Assembly (NCBI GenBank): GCA_011523825.1 | Contig: WTFX01000017.1 | Location: 62,001-126,000, forward strand | Direction of reading: 5' to 3' | Length of the DNA: 64,000 nt | DNA from: Microthrixaceae bacterium | Lineage (GTDB): Bacteria > Actinomycetota > Acidimicrobiia > Acidimicrobiales > Poriferisodalaceae | Part shown: positions 29,462 to 52,276 of the stretch, piece after piece | Layout of the letters: the number at the start of each line of letters is the position of its first letter | Position numbering within the stretch: position 1 is the first letter of the stretch | Made by a program: the position numbers and the translations under genes | Notes under the pieces: model-generated | Seen by the model: the letters and a program-made list of their open reading frames with translations, nothing else | The model's database searches: none | Told to the model about the DNA's origin: nothing

Positions 29462-31090
<1,629 letters not shown>

Positions 31091-42860: not shown

Positions 42861-43892
42861 GTGGCGCCCCTTTCCCCGTTGCAGGCCCGGCCCGATGCCG
42901 AGGCTGACCTGGCCCGTGTGGAGGCCGCCTTGCGCGCTGCGGCGGTCACCGGCGACGAGTTCCTCACCGAGGTGACCTCGCACCTGATCCCTGCGGGCGG
43001 CAAGCGGCTGAGGCCCGCATTCGTCATTGCGTCGGCGCTCGCGCTCGATCACGACGGCGCTGCGGCCGATGCGGTCACCGACGAGATGGTGTGCGGCGGC
43101 GTTGCGGTGGAGCTGGTGCACCTGGGCTCGCTGTACCACGACGACGTCATGGACGACGCAGAGACCCGCCGCGGCATCGAGGCGGTGAATCACCGCTGGG
43201 GCAACCTGAAGGCGATCCTGGCCGGCGACTTCCTGCTGGCCAAGGCGTCGGAGCTGGCGGCGTCGCTGGGCACCGAGGTGGCCGCGCTGCTGGCCGCCAC
43301 GATCGGCCGGCTGTGCGAGGGTCAGGTGCGCGAGCTGCAGCTGATCTATGACCGGAGCCGCACTGAGGACCAGTACTTCCTGGCCATCCAGGGAAAGACC
43401 GCAGAACTGTACGCAACGTCGTGCCGCATCGGCGGGCTGGTGGCCGGCGTCGACGGTCAGACCCTGGACCGCCTCACCAGCTTCGGGCTCGCCTATGGCA
43501 TGGCATTCCAGATCGTCGATGACGTGCTCGACCTGGTTGCCTCCGACGAGGAGCTCGGCAAGCCCTCGGGCAACGACTTGCGTGAGGGCGTGTACACGCT
43601 GCCGGTGATCCGGATGCTGGCGGACGGGTACGCAGACGGTGAGCGCCTGAGCGAGCTGCTCGGCGAGCCGCTCGACGACGACCGGCGGGATCGGGCCCGG
43701 GCGATCGTGGTGGACGGCCCCGAGATCGCCAGCTCGGTGCAGACCGCGCAGCGCTACGTGACTGCGGCCCTCGATGCGCTGACGCCGCTGCAGGCCACAC
43801 CGGGGGTGGTCGGGCTCCGTGCCGCAGCGTCGAACCTGCTCAGCACGCTGCCCTTGTCCGCTGGGGCTGGCGCAGCCGCGGGCGCCGATTGA
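42861..43892 (+). CDS. Polyprenyl diphosphate synthase (trans, medium/long chain)
   Basis: Trans-isoprenyl diphosphate synthase that chains IPP units to make a quinone side chain or similar. The first Asp-rich motif is YHDDVMDDAETRRG (DDxxD) and the second is FQIVDDVLDLVASDEELGKPSGNDLREG. The FQIVDD form and the small residues before motif 1 (HLGSLYHDD) fit hexa- to octaprenyl synthases such as GrcC/HepT, giving menaquinone chains. The GTG at 42861 is the start; the length of 343 is normal. It ends overlapping or abutting folP. Chain length cannot be read exactly. Confidence 0.92.
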   Translation: MAPLSPLQARPDAEADLARVEAALRAAAVTGDEFLTEVTSHLIPAGGKRLRPAFVIASALALDHDGAAADAVTDEMVCGGVAVELVHLGSLYHDDVMDDAETRRGIEAVNHRWGNLKAILAGDFLLAKASELAASLGTEVAALLAATIGRLCEGQVRELQLIYDRSRTEDQYFLAIQGKTAELYATSCRIGGLVAGVDGQTLDRLTSFGLAYGMAFQIVDDVLDLVASDEELGKPSGNDLREGVYTLPVIRMLADGYADGERLSELLGEPLDDDRRDRARAIVVDGPEIASSVQTAQRYVTAALDALTPLQATPGVVGLRAAASNLLSTLPLSAGAGAAAGAD

Positions 43893-43894
43893 GC

Positions 43895-44785
43895 GTGGCC
43901 GGGCCGCAGATGCCGCCGGGCTGGCCGATCCGGCGCCGCTACCGGCATGGCTGGTGGGATCCCGGTCGTGGACCGTGCTGGCAATGGGGATCCCGCACGT
44001 TCGTGATGGGCATCATCAACGCCACCGACGACTCGTTCTCCGGCGACGGCGTGGCCGATCGGCTCGACGAAGCGCTGGCGCTGACACACGAACTCGTCGA
44101 TGGCGCCGTCGACATCATCGACATCGGCGGCGCATCCAGTCGACCCGGTGCCGAGCCCACGCCCATCGATGTGGAACGCAAGCGCGTGGTCCGGGTGATC
44201 GAGGCCGTGCGGGCAGAACTGGACCGCATCGGAGCCGATCTGCCGATCTCGGTGGACACGACGTGGGCCGAGGTGGCCGAACCCGCCTTCGATGCCGGCG
44301 CGTCAGTCGTGAACGACATCACCGGTTTTCGCCTCGATCCCGATCTCGCGCCGCTGGTGGCCGAACGCGGCGCCGCCGCCGTGCTCATGCACAACCAGCG
44401 AGGCCGACCGCACACCGACCTGATCGCCGATGTGACGGCCGGGCTCACAGCCAGCCTCCGGATCTGCGCCGAGGCCGGCGTGAACACCGACCGCGTTGTG
44501 GTCGATCCCGGGTTCGGCTTCGGCTTCGGCGTGGCGCAGAACCTGGAGATGATGCGCCGGCTGCCCGAGCTCTGGGCGCTCGAGCTGCCCCTGCTCATCG
44601 GCACCTCGCGCAAGTCCACCATCGGTGCGGTCACCAACGCCGAGATCGACGATCGCCTGTTCGGCACCGCCGCCACCATCACGGCCGCCATCTACGCGGG
44701 CATCGACATTGTGCGGGTTCACGACGCCGCCGAGATGGCTCAGGCCATCCAGATGACCGACGCCATCGTCCGCCCCACTGGCTAG
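43895..44785 (+). CDS. folP: Dihydropteroate synthase (FolP family)
   Basis: TIM-barrel enzyme joining p-aminobenzoate to the pterin diphosphate in folate synthesis. The motifs are present but diverged: MGIINATDDSFSGDG (usual NVTPDSFSDGG), DIGGASSRPGAEPTP (usual GGESTRPGA), DPGFGFGFG (a Phe where GFGK is common), TSRKSTIG and VRVHDA. The Asn, Asp, SRKS Lys and RVHD residues expected for catalysis are kept. It is separate from folB/folK (48007-48872) by about 3 kb. A GTG at 43895 or an in-frame TTG at 43889 may be the start. Being a FolP2-like non-canonical paralogue remains possible. Confidence 0.87.
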   Translation: MAGPQMPPGWPIRRRYRHGWWDPGRGPCWQWGSRTFVMGIINATDDSFSGDGVADRLDEALALTHELVDGAVDIIDIGGASSRPGAEPTPIDVERKRVVRVIEAVRAELDRIGADLPISVDTTWAEVAEPAFDAGASVVNDITGFRLDPDLAPLVAERGAAAVLMHNQRGRPHTDLIADVTAGLTASLRICAEAGVNTDRVVVDPGFGFGFGVAQNLEMMRRLPELWALELPLLIGTSRKSTIGAVTNAEIDDRLFGTAATITAAIYAGIDIVRVHDAAEMAQAIQMTDAIVRPTG

Positions 44786-47293: not shown

Positions 47294-48010
47294 GTGACTC
47301 AGCAGGACTCGCCGAGCCAACCCGGCAGCCCAGCCGGCATCAACCCGGTCGGGCCCGGCCACGACTGGAGTGCGGTCGAGCGGGCGGCTGCTGCGATGCG
47401 CCGGCTGAACCAGGCGCTGGCCAACCGGCGGGTCGACGACGAGGTACTCGACGAGATCACGGCCACGGTCGAGGCCACCGCGGCGCGCCTAGAGCAGGGC
47501 ACGCTGCGAGTGAAGCTCGACGACATGCTCTCGCGGCCCTACCTCCGCGAGATCTACGAGGGGCAGTACTTCCCGCTGCCGCTCGAGCCCGGCGACGAGA
47601 TCGAGTTCGATCCCTTCTCGATCGGAGGCGGCACGCTGCATCCGGCATCCGTCGACGTCAAGTACTTCAAGGAGTCCGACGATGCGGTCACCGGCGAGGC
47701 CGTGGTGGACGCCATGTTTGCCGGGCCGCCCGAGCGCACGCACGGTGGTGTGGTGGCGCTCATCATCGATGAGCTGATGGGCGCGCTGAACCGCATGCGG
47801 GGCCGGCAGGCCTATACCGGCCGGCTGACCGTCCACTACCGCGCCGCGACACCGATCGGCGAGCCGCTGCGGCTGCGAGCGTGGGTCGAATCCACATCGG
47901 GCCGCAAGATCGTCCAGCACGCCGAGGTGCACGGCCCCGAGGGGCTCTGTGTGAACGCCGAGGGGCTGTTCATCCTGCGGGCGGACGCGCCGCCGATCCC
48001 CGAGGCCTAG
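47294..48010 (+). CDS. Hotdog-fold thioesterase (PaaI/4HBT type)
   Basis: Predicted acyl-CoA thioesterase of about 238 residues. The C-terminal hotdog domain has FAGPPERTHGGVVALIIDELMGALN, with the conserved H-G-G-x3-x-x-x-D/E pattern of PaaI-type enzymes, followed by AYTGRLTVHYRAATPIGEPLRLRAWVESTSGRKI. The N-terminal 90 residues are helical and not recognised. The start GTG at 47294-47296 is preferred; the frame continues to 47120 but overlaps the divergent dehydrogenase. It ends in TAG, whose last two bases overlap the folK stop on the other strand. Proximity to beta-oxidation genes suggests a fatty acyl-CoA substrate. Confidence 0.88.
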   Translation: MTQQDSPSQPGSPAGINPVGPGHDWSAVERAAAAMRRLNQALANRRVDDEVLDEITATVEATAARLEQGTLRVKLDDMLSRPYLREIYEGQYFPLPLEPGDEIEFDPFSIGGGTLHPASVDVKYFKESDDAVTGEAVVDAMFAGPPERTHGGVVALIIDELMGALNRMRGRQAYTGRLTVHYRAATPIGEPLRLRAWVESTSGRKIVQHAEVHGPEGLCVNAEGLFILRADAPPIPEA

Positions 48011-48507
48011 AGGTCGCGCAGCAGCTCGACGCTCCCGATGCGCTCGCAGTCCTGATCGGCGACCGCTGCCAGCTCGCCGAGCGTGACCAGATCGGGCGAC
48101 AGCTCTGCCAGCGGGTCGAGCACGAACCGGCGCTCGCGCAGGCGGGGGTGCGGGATCACAAGTTCCGGATCACGCAGCTCCGTGTCGCCGAAGAGCAGCA
48201 CGTCCACATCCAGCGTGCGGGGCCCCCAGCGTTCACGGCGCACCCGCTGCGCCGCGGCTTCGAGTGCCTGGCAGCGGGCCAGCAACTCGTACGGACCCTC
48301 GGGCACCGACAGTTCGGCCACGAGGTTCAGGAACTCCGGCTGCTCGGGGCCGATCGGCGCGCTGCGGTACACGCCCGAGACTGCCACCAGCACGTCGGCG
48401 GCATCCAGCGAGTCGAGCGCGCCGGCCAGCTGTGCCGCGGGATTGCCGATGTTCGCGCCCAGTCCCACGAACGCCCGTGTGCGTGACGATGCGCCGATTG
48501 GGCTCAC
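48007..48507 (-). CDS. folK: 2-amino-4-hydroxy-6-hydroxymethyldihydropteridine diphosphokinase
   Basis: HPPK activates the pterin for condensation by FolP, using ATP. Motifs: FVGLGANIGNPAAQLAGALDSL at the N-terminus, GVYRSAPIGPEQPEFLNLVAEL, and RWGPRTLDVDVLLFGDTELRDPELVIPHPRLRERRFVLDPLAEL with the D-x-D metal pair and the HPR signature. The GTG at 48505-48507 overlaps the folB stop (GTGA) and gives 166 residues, normal. It is the last gene of the run metalloprotease-tilS-hpt-phosphatase-like-folB-folK and overlaps the convergent thioesterase stop by 4 nt. Confidence 0.95.
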   Translation of the reverse strand: MSPIGASSRTRAFVGLGANIGNPAAQLAGALDSLDAADVLVAVSGVYRSAPIGPEQPEFLNLVAELSVPEGPYELLARCQALEAAAQRVRRERWGPRTLDVDVLLFGDTELRDPELVIPHPRLRERRFVLDPLAELSPDLVTLGELAAVADQDCERIGSVELLRDL

Positions 48508-48872
48508 ACCGGGCTGCGAGTGATGCGCACGCCGCTGGTGCCGAGGTCGGCCGCAACGGGCGGGCGGAGCTTGGTGACAGCGACCGTGGCGGCGGTCACG
48601 GCGTCGATGCCGCACAGCTCGGTGGCGATCAGCTCGGCCAACCGTTCGAGCAGCTGCGGCTGCGCGTCGTTGCAGAGCGCCACGATGCGGTCGCACACCG
48701 CTCCGTAGTCGACAGTGCGGCTCAAGTCGTCGGTGGCCCCCGCCTGGCTCAGGTCGGCGTAGAGATCGACGTCGATGCTGAGCGGCTGCGGCGCGGTGCG
48801 CTCATGCGCCAGCGCCCCGATCACGCACGTCACCCGCAAATCGCGCAGCTCAATGCGGTCGGGCGCTGTCAT
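48504..48872 (-). CDS. folB: Dihydroneopterin aldolase
   Basis: FolB splits dihydroneopterin to give the 6-hydroxymethyl pterin used by FolK. The small octamer-forming fold is seen in DRIELRDLRVTCVIGALAHERTAPQPLSIDVDLYADLSQAGATDDLSRTVDYGAVCDRI, where the substrate Tyr/Glu and the VDY motif stand out, followed by QLLERLAELIATELC. At 122 residues it is normal. It overlaps folK by 4 nt and follows the phosphatase-like gene by 8 nt. The position in a fol block beside hpt and tilS resembles the mycobacterial arrangement. Confidence 0.95.
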   Translation of the reverse strand: MTAPDRIELRDLRVTCVIGALAHERTAPQPLSIDVDLYADLSQAGATDDLSRTVDYGAVCDRIVALCNDAQPQLLERLAELIATELCGIDAVTAATVAVTKLRPPVAADLGTSGVRITRSPV

Positions 48873-48880
48873 AGCGGGGC

Positions 48881-49399
48881 TCAGCTCGTGATGCCGTGGC
48901 CGGGGAGGATGCTCAGCGCCACATCGACCACACGCCGCCCCTCAGGGCCGACTCGCTGACCGAAGATCCGCTCGGTGATGGCCGTGGCCTGAGGACCGGT
49001 GGGCACCTTGCCCGACAGCAGCAGGTACGACGCCACGAACCCGCACACGTCCTCGCCGACGCGCTCCTTGTGCAGGATGACGCGTTTGCGCTCGCCGGCC
49101 AGCCGCTCCAGGTCGTCATGGACCGACTGCAGGTACTCGCCCAGGTCGTCGAAGGCGGGCCACGGCCGGTGCAGGTAGGGCATGTCCAGCTCGTCGTAGT
49201 TGTGCAGGTTGTGGGGCGCCGAGATCAGCGACACGACGATGTCGAACTCGTGACGCCGCAGCCAGATGATCTCCTCCTGACGGCGGACGCGCCGGTGGCT
49301 CGCGCCGTAGCCGCCAGGACGCTCGCACACCGCCAGGCGGTCGGCGACGACCCAGTTGAAGTTGCGGGGCTGAATGCCCTCCGCCCACTTCCCTCTCAT
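48881..49399 (-). CDS. Dual-specificity phosphatase-like protein lacking the catalytic Cys-x5-Arg
   Basis: A 172-residue protein with a pattern that looks like a small dual-specificity phosphatase: FDIVVSLISAPHNLHNYDELDMPYLHRPWPAFDD then the place of the P-loop, RVILHKERVGEDVCGFVASYLLLSGKVP. A working enzyme has HCx5R(S/T) here; this one has His followed by Lys and no Arg at the end of the loop, so it should not dephosphorylate by the usual mechanism. The N-terminus WAEGIQPRNFNWVVADRLAVCERPGGYGASHRRVRRQEEI looks conserved and strongly basic. It lies between hpt (108 nt) and folB (8 nt). A binding or regulatory role is possible; function is unknown. Confidence 0.65.
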   Translation of the reverse strand: MRGKWAEGIQPRNFNWVVADRLAVCERPGGYGASHRRVRRQEEIIWLRRHEFDIVVSLISAPHNLHNYDELDMPYLHRPWPAFDDLGEYLQSVHDDLERLAGERKRVILHKERVGEDVCGFVASYLLLSGKVPTGPQATAITERIFGQRVGPEGRRVVDVALSILPGHGITS

Positions 49400-49507: not shown

Positions 49508-50122
49508 CTAGCTGCCGTCGCCAGCCGAGGAGTCGTACGCACGAATCTCCGCCAGATTGCGATATTTCTGCGCCAGGTCGAGCCCGTAGCCGATCACCCA
49601 GACGGGCGGCAAGCGGAATCCGATGTAGTCGACGAGGCCGTTCAGGCTGCCGTTGTGCTCGCGGGTCAGCAGCGAGCACACCGCCAGGCTGGCAGGGCCG
49701 CGGGCCAGCAGGCTGCGACGCAGGTACGACAGCGTGAGACCGCTCTCGACGATGTCCTCCACCAGGATTACGTCACGCCCTGCGATGTCGATGTCGAGAT
49801 CCTTGAGAATGCGCACGACGCCGCTGGAGCGGGTGCTGCTCCCGTACGACGACACAGCCATGAAGTCCATCTCGACCGGCAAGTCGATCGCGCGGCTGAG
49901 ATCGGAGGCGAACATCACCGCCCCCTTGAGCACCGCCACCAGCAGCGGCTCGCGGCCTGCGTAGTCGGCGGTGATCTGCGCGCCCAGCTCGGCGACTCGC
50001 TCGGCGATCTCGGGGCCCGAGACGAGGACATCGCCGACGTTGGGATCGCTGGCCAGCATCGAGTCGAGGTCGCTGGGCGATTCCTCCGAAGCCGAAGCGC
50101 CTGACGCCGATACCCCTGCCAC
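49508..50122 (-). CDS. hpt: Hypoxanthine phosphoribosyltransferase
   Basis: Purine salvage enzyme making IMP or GMP from hypoxanthine or guanine and PRPP. The PRPP loop VILVEDIVESGLTLSYLRRSLLARGP is typical (VEDIxxSGxTL), EPLLVAVLKGAVMFASDLSRAI is the N-terminal nucleotide site, and DFMAVSSYGSSTRSSGVVRILKDLD is the flexible loop. The C-terminus YGLDLAQKYRNLAEIRAY is the conserved end. The start is GTG at 50120-50122, with about 25 extra N-terminal residues compared with short homologues. It follows tilS by 53 nt, as in mycobacteria and many firmicutes; ftsH, often next, is not here. Confidence 0.95.
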   Translation of the reverse strand: MAGVSASGASASEESPSDLDSMLASDPNVGDVLVSGPEIAERVAELGAQITADYAGREPLLVAVLKGAVMFASDLSRAIDLPVEMDFMAVSSYGSSTRSSGVVRILKDLDIDIAGRDVILVEDIVESGLTLSYLRRSLLARGPASLAVCSLLTREHNGSLNGLVDYIGFRLPPVWVIGYGLDLAQKYRNLAEIRAYDSSAGDGS

Positions 50123-50175: not shown

Positions 50176-51105
50176 TCATTGCTCGAGTTGCAGCCGGTCA
50201 GCCGAGCGGCTGACACGCCGGCCGCCGCCGATCTCGGTGGCGCGGCGGCTGTGCCTGGCCACCTCGAGCACACGCTCGACCGCGCCGGCGTCGGGCGGAT
50301 GATCGGTGCGCAGCCATGCCCGGATGGCTCGCCGAGCCAGAGCCACCGGCGCATTCCGCAGCTCGGACGCACTGGTGGGATCGATGTCGGCTGCGAGCGC
50401 GTCGAGCAGGTCGGCATCGGCAGCCGCCAGCCCGGATCCACGGGCCAGCAGCGGCACCACGTCGCGCCCGGCGATGTCGCAGAGCAGCGGGATCACCTCG
50501 TGACGGACACGGCTGCGCCAGAAGCGAGGGTCGGCGTTGGACGGATCACGGACCGGCTCGTAGCCGACCAGCTCGCAGACCCGCTCGGTCTCGCTGCGCC
50601 GCAGCCCCAGCAGCGGCCGCCGGTCGGCTCTCATGGCCGCGAGCGCGTCAAGCGCGCCGCCGCGCAGCAGCTGCAGCAGCACTGTCTCTGCCTGATCGTC
50701 GGCGGTATGGCCGAGCAGTGCGTCGGGACCGAGCGCGGCGTGGCGGGCCTCCCGAGCCCGCGCCTGCAGGTTCGCCCCCGGCTCGACGTCCACGTGCGCC
50801 ATGCTGAACCCCGCCCCGAGCCGGTCGCACAGCGCCTCGACACGCGCCGCTTCTGCCGGTCCGGCGTCCCGCAGCCCGTGATCGACATGGACGGCGGTGA
50901 CGCTGCTGCCGCTGTGCTCGGCAAACCGGCATGCGAGCACCAGCAGCGCAGCCGAATCGGCACCGCCCGACACTGCGCACACCAGTACGGGGCTAGTGAC
51001 GTCGGCGAACGTGCACCGGTCCACCAGGCAGTCGAGTTCGTCTGAGCCCGGTGATGCATCGCCCGCAGCACTGGACGGCGCGGCAGGGGCGCCGGCAGCC
51101 GTCAC
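50176..51105 (-). CDS. tilS: tRNA(Ile)-lysidine synthetase
   Basis: Modifies the wobble cytidine of tRNA-Ile(CAU) to lysidine so that it reads AUA; essential in most bacteria. The PP-loop is VLVCAVSGGADSAALLVLACRFAE; AVHVDHGLRDAGPAEAARVEALCDRLG and LGHTADDQAETVLLQLLRGG are diagnostic of the family. SELVGYEPVRDPSN-type sequence precedes RSRVRHEVIPLL. The GTG at 51103-51105 (VTAAGAPAAP) is a plausible start, 28 nt after the metalloprotease stop, giving 309 residues; the frame runs further upstream over the metalloprotease. The C-terminal domain is short, as in other actinobacteria. Confidence 0.93.
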   Translation of the reverse strand: MTAAGAPAAPSSAAGDASPGSDELDCLVDRCTFADVTSPVLVCAVSGGADSAALLVLACRFAEHSGSSVTAVHVDHGLRDAGPAEAARVEALCDRLGAGFSMAHVDVEPGANLQARAREARHAALGPDALLGHTADDQAETVLLQLLRGGALDALAAMRADRRPLLGLRRSETERVCELVGYEPVRDPSNADPRFWRSRVRHEVIPLLCDIAGRDVVPLLARGSGLAAADADLLDALAADIDPTSASELRNAPVALARRAIRAWLRTDHPPDAGAVERVLEVARHSRRATEIGGGRRVSRSADRLQLEQ

Positions 51106-51133
51106 CCGCTGCGAGCGAGGTCCGGCGGCTCGA

Positions 51134-52276
51134 TCAGGCCGCGGGGACACGCTCCAGCCAGGCTTGAGGGTTGCGGATCTCCGCCATGGACGGCAGGTGC
51201 TCGACGCGTTCCCAGATCCTGTCGACTGCACGGGGGCCGCGCTCGGCCTCGATCTGGGCAATGAAGTCTTCACCGGCTTGGTACTGCGCCAGCTTGGCCT
51301 CGATGCCGAGCAGGCGCTGGATCAACCGGGCCATGCCGCGCACATTGCGGCGCCGATGGTGCATCACCACGGCAAACCGGTCGGCATCGGGAATGTGCCC
51401 GCGGGCGGCCCGCGCCATCGTGACATCGCCGTGCCCTTCCACCAGGCTCATCATGCCGCCCACCTGGGCGATCAGATCGCGCTGGTGGTCGGTGGCGAAC
51501 ACTGCGGCGAGCCCCCCTTCGCCCAGCAGGTCTTGGCCGTCCTGACCTGAGTGGTTGCGGCGCAGGGCCATCAGGCTGCGAAGGCCCTCGCGCATGCGCT
51601 CGGGATCGGGCTGGGCCTCGTCGACCAATCCGTTCACCAGCTGCAGGAAGTGCGGCCGCAGCCACGGCACGCCGGTGAACTGCGAGCGGTGCGTCAGCTC
51701 GTGGAGCGCCAGCCACAGGCGGAATTGGGCCGGCACGAATGCGTAGCGCTTCTCGGTGACCAGGATGTTCGGGCCGACGAAGTAGACGGTGTCTCCTGCC
51801 GTACCCGCTGGGGCGGCGCCCGAGCCGTGTGGGCCGCCGGTTGTTGCAGCGTCGTCGTCTGAGGCCCAGAGCAGGTCGTACTGGCCGAGCACCCTGCGTG
51901 CCATCCAGCCCAGCACCGAGCCCAGCTCGGCCGCGCCCAGTGTGCGCGTCACTCGCGCAGACGTCGCCGACCCAGCTTCGGCGGTGCCGTCGGCACCGTC
52001 GGGCGCGCCCAGCAGCGGCTGCAGCAGGCGCCGGAACGCTGCGATGTTGGCGTCGATCCAGCCCGTCCGGTCGATGACCTCTGCGTGCGCCTCGCCGGGC
52101 GTCTCCAGCCCGGTCTCGATGGCCACCAGCTCGGCCGCAACCGGCACGAATCGGGCGAAGTCCTGCCGCAGCGGTTCAGCGAGATAGGACTCGTACAGCG
52201 GCTCGGTGCCTGCGACGCGCACCGCGATGCGGCGCGCCAGATCCCAGTCGACGTGCTCGTCGGCGGGGTCGCTCAT
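51134..52276 (-). CDS. Zinc-dependent metalloprotease, DUF2342/F420-associated family
   Basis: Predicted zinc metallopeptidase of the actinobacterial DUF2342 family, often labelled coenzyme F420 biosynthesis-associated. The zinc motif HExxH is at LWLALHELTHRSQFTGVPWLRPHF, and ARRVLGQYDLLW, VYFVGPNILVTEKRYAFVPAQFRLW and MMSLVEGHGDVTMARAARGHIPDA follow the family well. The ATG at 52274-52276 (MSDPADEHVDWDLARRIAVRVAG) is chosen; the longer frame to 52351 runs into repeat R2. Order metalloprotease-tilS-hpt is the known actinobacterial arrangement, as in mycobacteria. Its physiological substrate is not known. Confidence 0.9.
   Translation of the reverse strand: MSDPADEHVDWDLARRIAVRVAGTEPLYESYLAEPLRQDFARFVPVAAELVAIETGLETPGEAHAEVIDRTGWIDANIAAFRRLLQPLLGAPDGADGTAEAGSATSARVTRTLGAAELGSVLGWMARRVLGQYDLLWASDDDAATTGGPHGSGAAPAGTAGDTVYFVGPNILVTEKRYAFVPAQFRLWLALHELTHRSQFTGVPWLRPHFLQLVNGLVDEAQPDPERMREGLRSLMALRRNHSGQDGQDLLGEGGLAAVFATDHQRDLIAQVGGMMSLVEGHGDVTMARAARGHIPDADRFAVVMHHRRRNVRGMARLIQRLLGIEAKLAQYQAGEDFIAQIEAERGPRAVDRIWERVEHLPSMAEIRNPQAWLERVPAA

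Follow-up and report, generated by a model that had tools for sequence, protein, structure and literature searches.

The gene named X here, at positions 48881 to 49399 of the window (the whole 64,000-nucleotide stretch of DNA that was analysed), raises the question of what a protein with the look of a dual-specificity phosphatase (DSP) does when its P-loop carries neither the catalytic Cys nor the catalytic Arg and its gene lies among folate and purine genes. A first-pass annotation had located it 8 nt before folB and after hpt, and this location is confirmed by the open reading frames and the Pfam matches. The features concerned are the following.

43889..44785, plus strand: folP, apart from X and on the opposite strand here (Pfam Pterin_bind, E 7.5e-66)
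48007..48486, minus strand: folK (HPPK), start codon not fixed (Pfam HPPK, E 8.8e-36)
48504..48872, minus strand: folB, 8 nt downstream of X (Pfam FolB, E 6.4e-30)
48881..49399, minus strand: X, a predicted DSP-fold pseudophosphatase of 172 amino acids (ORF, AlphaFold2 model with a DSP fold, profile match to a solved DSP)
49040..49072, minus strand: altered P-loop of X, residues 110-120, HKERVGEDVCG (sequence)
49262..49324, minus strand: conserved basic loop of X, residues 26-46, ERPGGYGASHRRVRRQEEIIW in the window (conservation counts)
49358..49399, minus strand: N-terminal segment of X, MRGKWAEGIQPRNF (seven positions invariant in 52 rows)
49508..50122, minus strand: hpt, upstream of X (Pfam Pribosyltran, E 4.4e-22)
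50176..51273, minus strand: tilS, start codon not fixed (Pfam ATP_bind_3, PP-loop family, E 2.3e-34)

The ORF of X starts with ATG and is separated from that of hpt by 108 nt. The name tilS was assigned in the window from position and family.

Fold and family assignment

The AlphaFold2 model of X (mean pLDDT 89.4, pTM 0.85) was placed among the DSPs using Foldseek and VIA-align. The best solved match is DUSP23 (2img), with a Foldseek E value of 7.5e-8 and an alignment of 145 residues at Z 17.9 and rmsd 2.1. A PTP/DSP fold is confidently predicted from this model, in keeping with the resemblance to DSPs proposed earlier; an unrelated fold, which would have spoken against that proposal, was not what the prediction gave. 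X alone matches no Pfam or NCBIfam family at E values up to 10, and no family of either collection covers its relatives. A 52-row profile of X reached the solved DSP 25xa with an E value of 1.7e-7. A second, broader profile, built from 11 members of which five lie outside the class (Acidimicrobiia), reached 25xa (E 3.4e-11) and VHR (E 8.4e-4). Among individual members, weak matches were found to the Pfam families Tc-R-P (8 of 52, best E 0.0011), DSPc (7 of 52, best E 0.038) and PAS_3 (12 of 52, best E 0.0098), and in the wider set to Tc-R-P (5 of 11, best E 0.00024) and PTP-SAK (1 of 11, E 0.026). An interpretation of X as a PAS domain was discarded, as the fold search list gives it no support.

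The altered P-loop

The P-loop of X in the window reads VILHKERVGEDVCGF, where HKERVGED replaces HCx5R; in a gapless alignment to DSPs the canonical Cys position is occupied by K111 and the Arg position by D117. X was collected from 215 sources, which are 216 loci plus the window minus L206, which does not include X, and L207, a 100-base piece. These sources yielded 172 distinct sequences, of which 167 belong to the class and 5 do not, in a sample that is weighted to Acidimicrobiales and whose rows are not independent. The Cys and Arg of HCx5R are found together in none of the 172. Cys111 is present in seven, two of them in the class; in most of the others the residue at 111 is Arg, Gly, Lys, His or Ala. 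Arg117 is present in 101 sequences; Asp at this position is restricted to the window's genus, as is the combination of Lys111 and Asp117 (10 rows). The absence of both catalytic residues, as first described, is therefore correct for the window, and that of the Cys extends to nearly the whole family, but the loss of the Arg is a local event. The P-loop Gly114 is found in none of the sequences and Ser/Thr118 in three.

The family has instead an acidic P-loop signature, Hx[DE]x3[DE], in which His110 is conserved in 171 sequences, an acidic residue (D/E) at 112 in 170 and at 116 in 167, the last two jointly in 165. The triplet His-Lys-Glu, proposed as possibly conserved, is thus kept only as the His and an acidic third residue, and the Lys is not kept. 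Position 84, a candidate for the DSP general acid, is Asp in 101 sequences and Glu in 19. The 32 genomes with X outside the class include no intact HCx5R; the Cys is present in 23 of them, and in every one of these Trp occupies the Arg position. The first-pass annotation had considered that relatives with an intact HCx5R would reveal a recent decay, and there are none among the 172 sequences or these 32 genomes.

Two further possibilities were considered and rejected. No Cys column that could hold a displaced nucleophile reaches 60% of the 172 sequences; the best one, C25, is Cys in 79 of 83 Acidimicrobiales sequences but in 99 of 172 in the wider set. An exchange of the Arg between positions 111 and 117 as compensation was examined on a FastTree tree made from an alignment without the P-loop columns. 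At least 13 changes of Arg117 are seen on this tree and the two positions are never both Arg (0 of 172), but only three independent pairs were available and the result was not significant (median p 0.5).

The window's own genome also includes a 277-amino-acid stop-free frame with an intact HCGAGMART (contig C27, about 29480-29580, locus L253). It scores under the Pfam DSPc cut-off and, judging from this motif, is likely an active DSP-like phosphatase.

The basic loop and the ends of the protein

A strongly conserved part of X is found toward the N-terminus, in a loop with the family signature ERPGGxGxxHRxxRR that is about 6 residues longer than its counterpart in 25xa. R36 and R40 are present in all 172 sequences, R39 and E43 in 171, and H35 and R27 in 164; E26, R27, H35, R36, R39 and R40 are all present in 158. 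Outside this signature W16 and W46 are also invariant, and Y68 is present in 171 sequences. The loop appears not to be rigidly fixed, because in family f97 position 27 is Cys and position 35 is Pro, Ala or Ser. At the very start of the protein K4, W5, A6, G8, I9, P11 and R12 are invariant in 52 rows; the first ten residues have low model confidence (block mean pLDDT 58), and several other families of the class lack the first residues. The description of the N-terminal part as basic and conserved is supported.

The median pI of X over the aligned part is 7.2. Lys/Arg/Ala-rich C-terminal tails were observed in the X proteins of L153 and L186, both of family f34 (269-293 amino acids), and in the homologue of L070, where the tail has 119 amino acids. 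As Lys/Arg-rich C-terminal extensions occur in only these three of the loci examined, nucleic-acid-binding tails were rejected as a family trait. The L070 protein, a 289-amino-acid relative, was also considered as a fusion of X and FolB and rejected, its tail being Lys/Ala/Pro-rich and not FolB. In 31 of the 215 sources X lies inside a long stop-free frame and starts at residue 100 or later. A FolP-X fusion was discarded, with no FolP profile match in any of these 31 frames, and in the examples inspected the upstream part is an out-of-frame reading.

Distribution and selection

X was found in 58 of 61 genomes near that of the window and, with one match per genome, in 87 of the 90 class genomes sampled (completeness at least 90%); genomes of about 1 Mb (family f97) retain it as well. 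In a sample of the phylum 42 of 396 genomes match X, five of them outside the class and all five from one family; in the class to which these five belong, 32 of 199 genomes, from two families, have a match. A scan for related loci kept 80 of 466, and those examined are from Acidimicrobiia, with the exception of a few that are possibly mislabelled.

Using ten sequences 90-98% identical to that of the window, a median dN/dS of 0.106 was obtained for X (45 pairs, range 0.017-0.283); hpt, with 10 sequences, has a similar value of 0.093, and folB (0.282) and folK (0.167), each with 9 sequences, have higher ones. X evolves under purifying selection. It is a conserved single-copy protein whose motif has been lost across the family and not the product of a recent decay.

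Gene setting

The usual gene order, with variants, is tilS hpt (ftsH) folE folP X folB folK panC panD nadB (155 loci). Among 138 distinct loci with room upstream, in which nine families were sought, the first one found before X is folP in 89, hpt in 31, tilS in 16, folE in one and none in one. The idea that X is always between hpt and folB applies to only a part of the class: hpt-X-folB is one local form of a setting in which X is more often located between folP and folB or folK. The broader claim of a conserved folate-related block is supported, as long-term conservation in such a cluster is evident. Downstream, folB or folK is found within 3 kb of X in 102 of the 126 loci that have 3 kb on that side, and 63 of the 82 genomes with both X and FolB carry the two on one contig, no more than 2.5 kb apart (Pfam coordinates, counted by eye); in the remaining genomes FolB is elsewhere or on another contig. 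These two figures are safer than the folB adjacency of 41 of 126 given by our own profiles, which was rejected as too low after Pfam had found folB genes of f97 that the profiles missed.

The setting varies in several ways. In family f7 X follows tilS and no folate gene is present there, and in f100 and related families (L188, L163, L164) an extra 1.5 kb or so was observed between X and folB or folK. A second or third HPPK match was observed in nine genomes (G104, G116, G360, G387, G396, G480, G482, G498 and G506); in all of these but G498, HPPK is directly after X and FolB is elsewhere. In several of the nine a weaker-scoring HPPK is found with FolE and FolB elsewhere while the better-scoring one adjoins X, and the extra copy looks like part of a second folE-folK-folB block, perhaps acquired. 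Outside the class X is located by a 4HBT thioesterase gene and a GH5-like gene, or else close to MurT and a diacylglycerol-kinase-like gene; the neighbours scanned there include no folate genes.

Relationship to folate synthesis

FolE was identified in 80, FolB in 84 and FolK in 85 of the 90 class genomes. X is present in all ten genomes without FolE, in five of six without FolB and in four of five without FolK. Genomes G128, G182 and G204 keep X in the absence of FolE, FolE2, FolB and FolK; each still matches the broad pterin-binding family, and some of the matching frames, of about 1300 amino acids, may be methionine synthase. Conversely, FolE, FolB and FolK are all present and X absent in G139 and G502, and in G463 FolE is present but FolB, FolK and X are all absent. 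Individual mismatches of this kind could be due to genes missing from draft assemblies. In G139, a complete genome from the same order on a single contig of 2158157 bases, the genes for FolE, FolB and FolK are adjacent to each other. Four f7 genomes (G042, G150, G172 and G310) were also observed to have FolB and FolK and no FolE, FolE2 being present only in G042.

Because X and FolE, FolB or FolK occur separately, the folate pathway does not require X, nor is X confined to it. If X were a FolQ-like protein it would be present with and only with the pterin branch, from which G128, G182, G204, G139 and G502 depart; clustering with folE, folB or folK, also expected of such a protein, is observed in the form of FolB near X in 63 of 82 genomes.

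Possible roles of X

On balance, X is probably a bacterial housekeeping pseudophosphatase whose remodelled pocket binds an anionic ligand or a partner. The old catalytic pocket would have been rebuilt as a putative binding site. A basic insert (HRxxRR) is present in the loop that precedes the first helix, and the P-loop has changed from a phosphate-gripping one (HCxxGxxR[ST]) to an acidic one (Hx[DE]x3[DE]). The same loop touches the ligand in PTEN-like DSPs, and by analogy we infer that the basic loop of X sits at the pocket. X could then hold an anionic metabolite, a nucleic acid or a partner protein and leave it uncleaved, regulating some core process or serving it as an adaptor, with the folate cluster being its usual genomic home and not its sole purpose. 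The invariant residues in the basic loop and the retention of acidic residues at 112 and 116 are in favour of this proposal, as are the predicted fold, the absence of an intact HCx5R, the low dN/dS, the presence of X in nearly all class genomes, the lack of a well-conserved Cys column and the independence from folate synthesis. Counting against it, the basic loop varies in family f97, an acidic P-loop would weaken the binding of anions there, and the Arg117 retained in 101 sequences would also suit a phosphate site that has been kept. Conservation in a metabolic cluster would equally suit an enzyme.

Possible, although somewhat unlikely, is that X is a purely structural or interaction module, its pocket shut by salt bridges that link the acidic P-loop to the basic loop, with no small ligand bound and with TilS, Hpt, FtsH or another partner docked on its surface. 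In favour of this are the conservation of both loops, the presence of tilS, hpt, folP or folE as the first of the nine sought families upstream in 137 of 138 loci, and the persistence of tilS beside X in genomes that have lost the folate genes there. This closeness is nevertheless weak evidence, since tilS-hpt-ftsH is a common gene order in bacteria.

It is distinctly unlikely that X is a Cys-independent enzyme, such as the missing hydrolase of dihydroneopterin triphosphate or monophosphate between FolE and FolB, with the near-invariant H110, D/E112 and D/E116 acting, perhaps through a metal, and the basic loop gripping the phosphates. The most common setting, folE-folP-X-folB/folK, is what such an enzyme would have, and the dihydroneopterin triphosphate pyrophosphatase gene has been reported to be missing in most genomes (PMC1971073). 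Opposed to this are the three genomes that keep X without FolE, FolE2, FolB and FolK, and the two that have FolE, FolB and FolK without X. The neighbours of X outside the class, which are a thioesterase gene or the MurT and diacylglycerol-kinase-like genes and no folate genes among those scanned, may also speak against it. A related proposal, a phosphohydrolase with a His/acid and possibly metal site on the DSP fold, whose nucleotide or pterin phosphate substrate is produced in cells that synthesise folate but matters beyond folate, is improbable; if true it would represent new chemistry on this fold and might close a gap that has long stood in the folate pathway of these bacteria.

That X is an active phosphatase, with a misread P-loop or a nucleophile on another Cys, is very improbable: Arg117 is kept in many sequences and Cys111 occurs in a few of them and in 23 of the 32 genomes outside the class, but the two residues are never together, the out-of-class Cys is accompanied by Trp at the Arg position, Gly114 is absent, Ser/Thr118 is rare, and no Cys column is widely kept. 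A decaying gene of no current use, to which the lost catalytic residues, including the Arg that has gone as well in the window's genus, might point, is hardly credible in view of the low dN/dS and the retention of X in 87 of 90 genomes and in those of about 1 Mb.

Comparison with known systems

A search for papers on this family, including on dual specificity phosphatases of Acidimicrobiia, found none, in a literature that it covers thinly for subscription journals. X shares its whole fold with DUSP23/VHZ, Tk-PTP and other small DSPs (2img, 4erc, 5z5a, and 25xa by sequence). 25xa has HCRAGYGRTG, whereas X has no Cys, no P-loop Gly and no Ser/Thr after the Arg, and differs further in the acidic P-loop and the extra residues of the basic loop. 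To Tc-R-P and PTP-SAK, which are DSP-PTPase domains, X is linked by weak profile scores only (14.8 for one member, against a curated cut-off of 27 bits), and no toxin context is found in the window. FolQ, the Nudix dihydroneopterin triphosphate pyrophosphatase, resembles X in being encoded in a folate cluster where removal of phosphate is needed; its fold is unrelated, and X, in contrast, persists without the pathway and can be absent with it.

A further parallel is with the STYX-type pseudophosphatases of eukaryotes, which like X have kept a DSP fold without the catalytic Cys (PMC10211241, PMC2175518). STYX (2r0b) aligns with the X model over 144 residues at Z 13.9, rmsd 2.8 and 10% identity, a structural match only. 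According to a review, some proteins of this type are one residue away from active enzymes, whereas X differs at several P-loop positions and has an added basic insert; it is also bacterial, has a single domain and is encoded in a metabolic cluster. Pseudophosphatases such as STYX being already known, X can be considered a bacterial variant with a clear new signature. The pseudophosphatases described in the literature met here are eukaryotic, and X is bacterial and nearly universal in its class. Given this near-universality, its retention in genomes of about 1 Mb and its signature, the role of X should be discoverable. The combination of a home in the folate cluster with independence from folate synthesis is a warning against assigning function by association, and X offers a defined target for learning how a dead phosphatase fold serves core metabolism.
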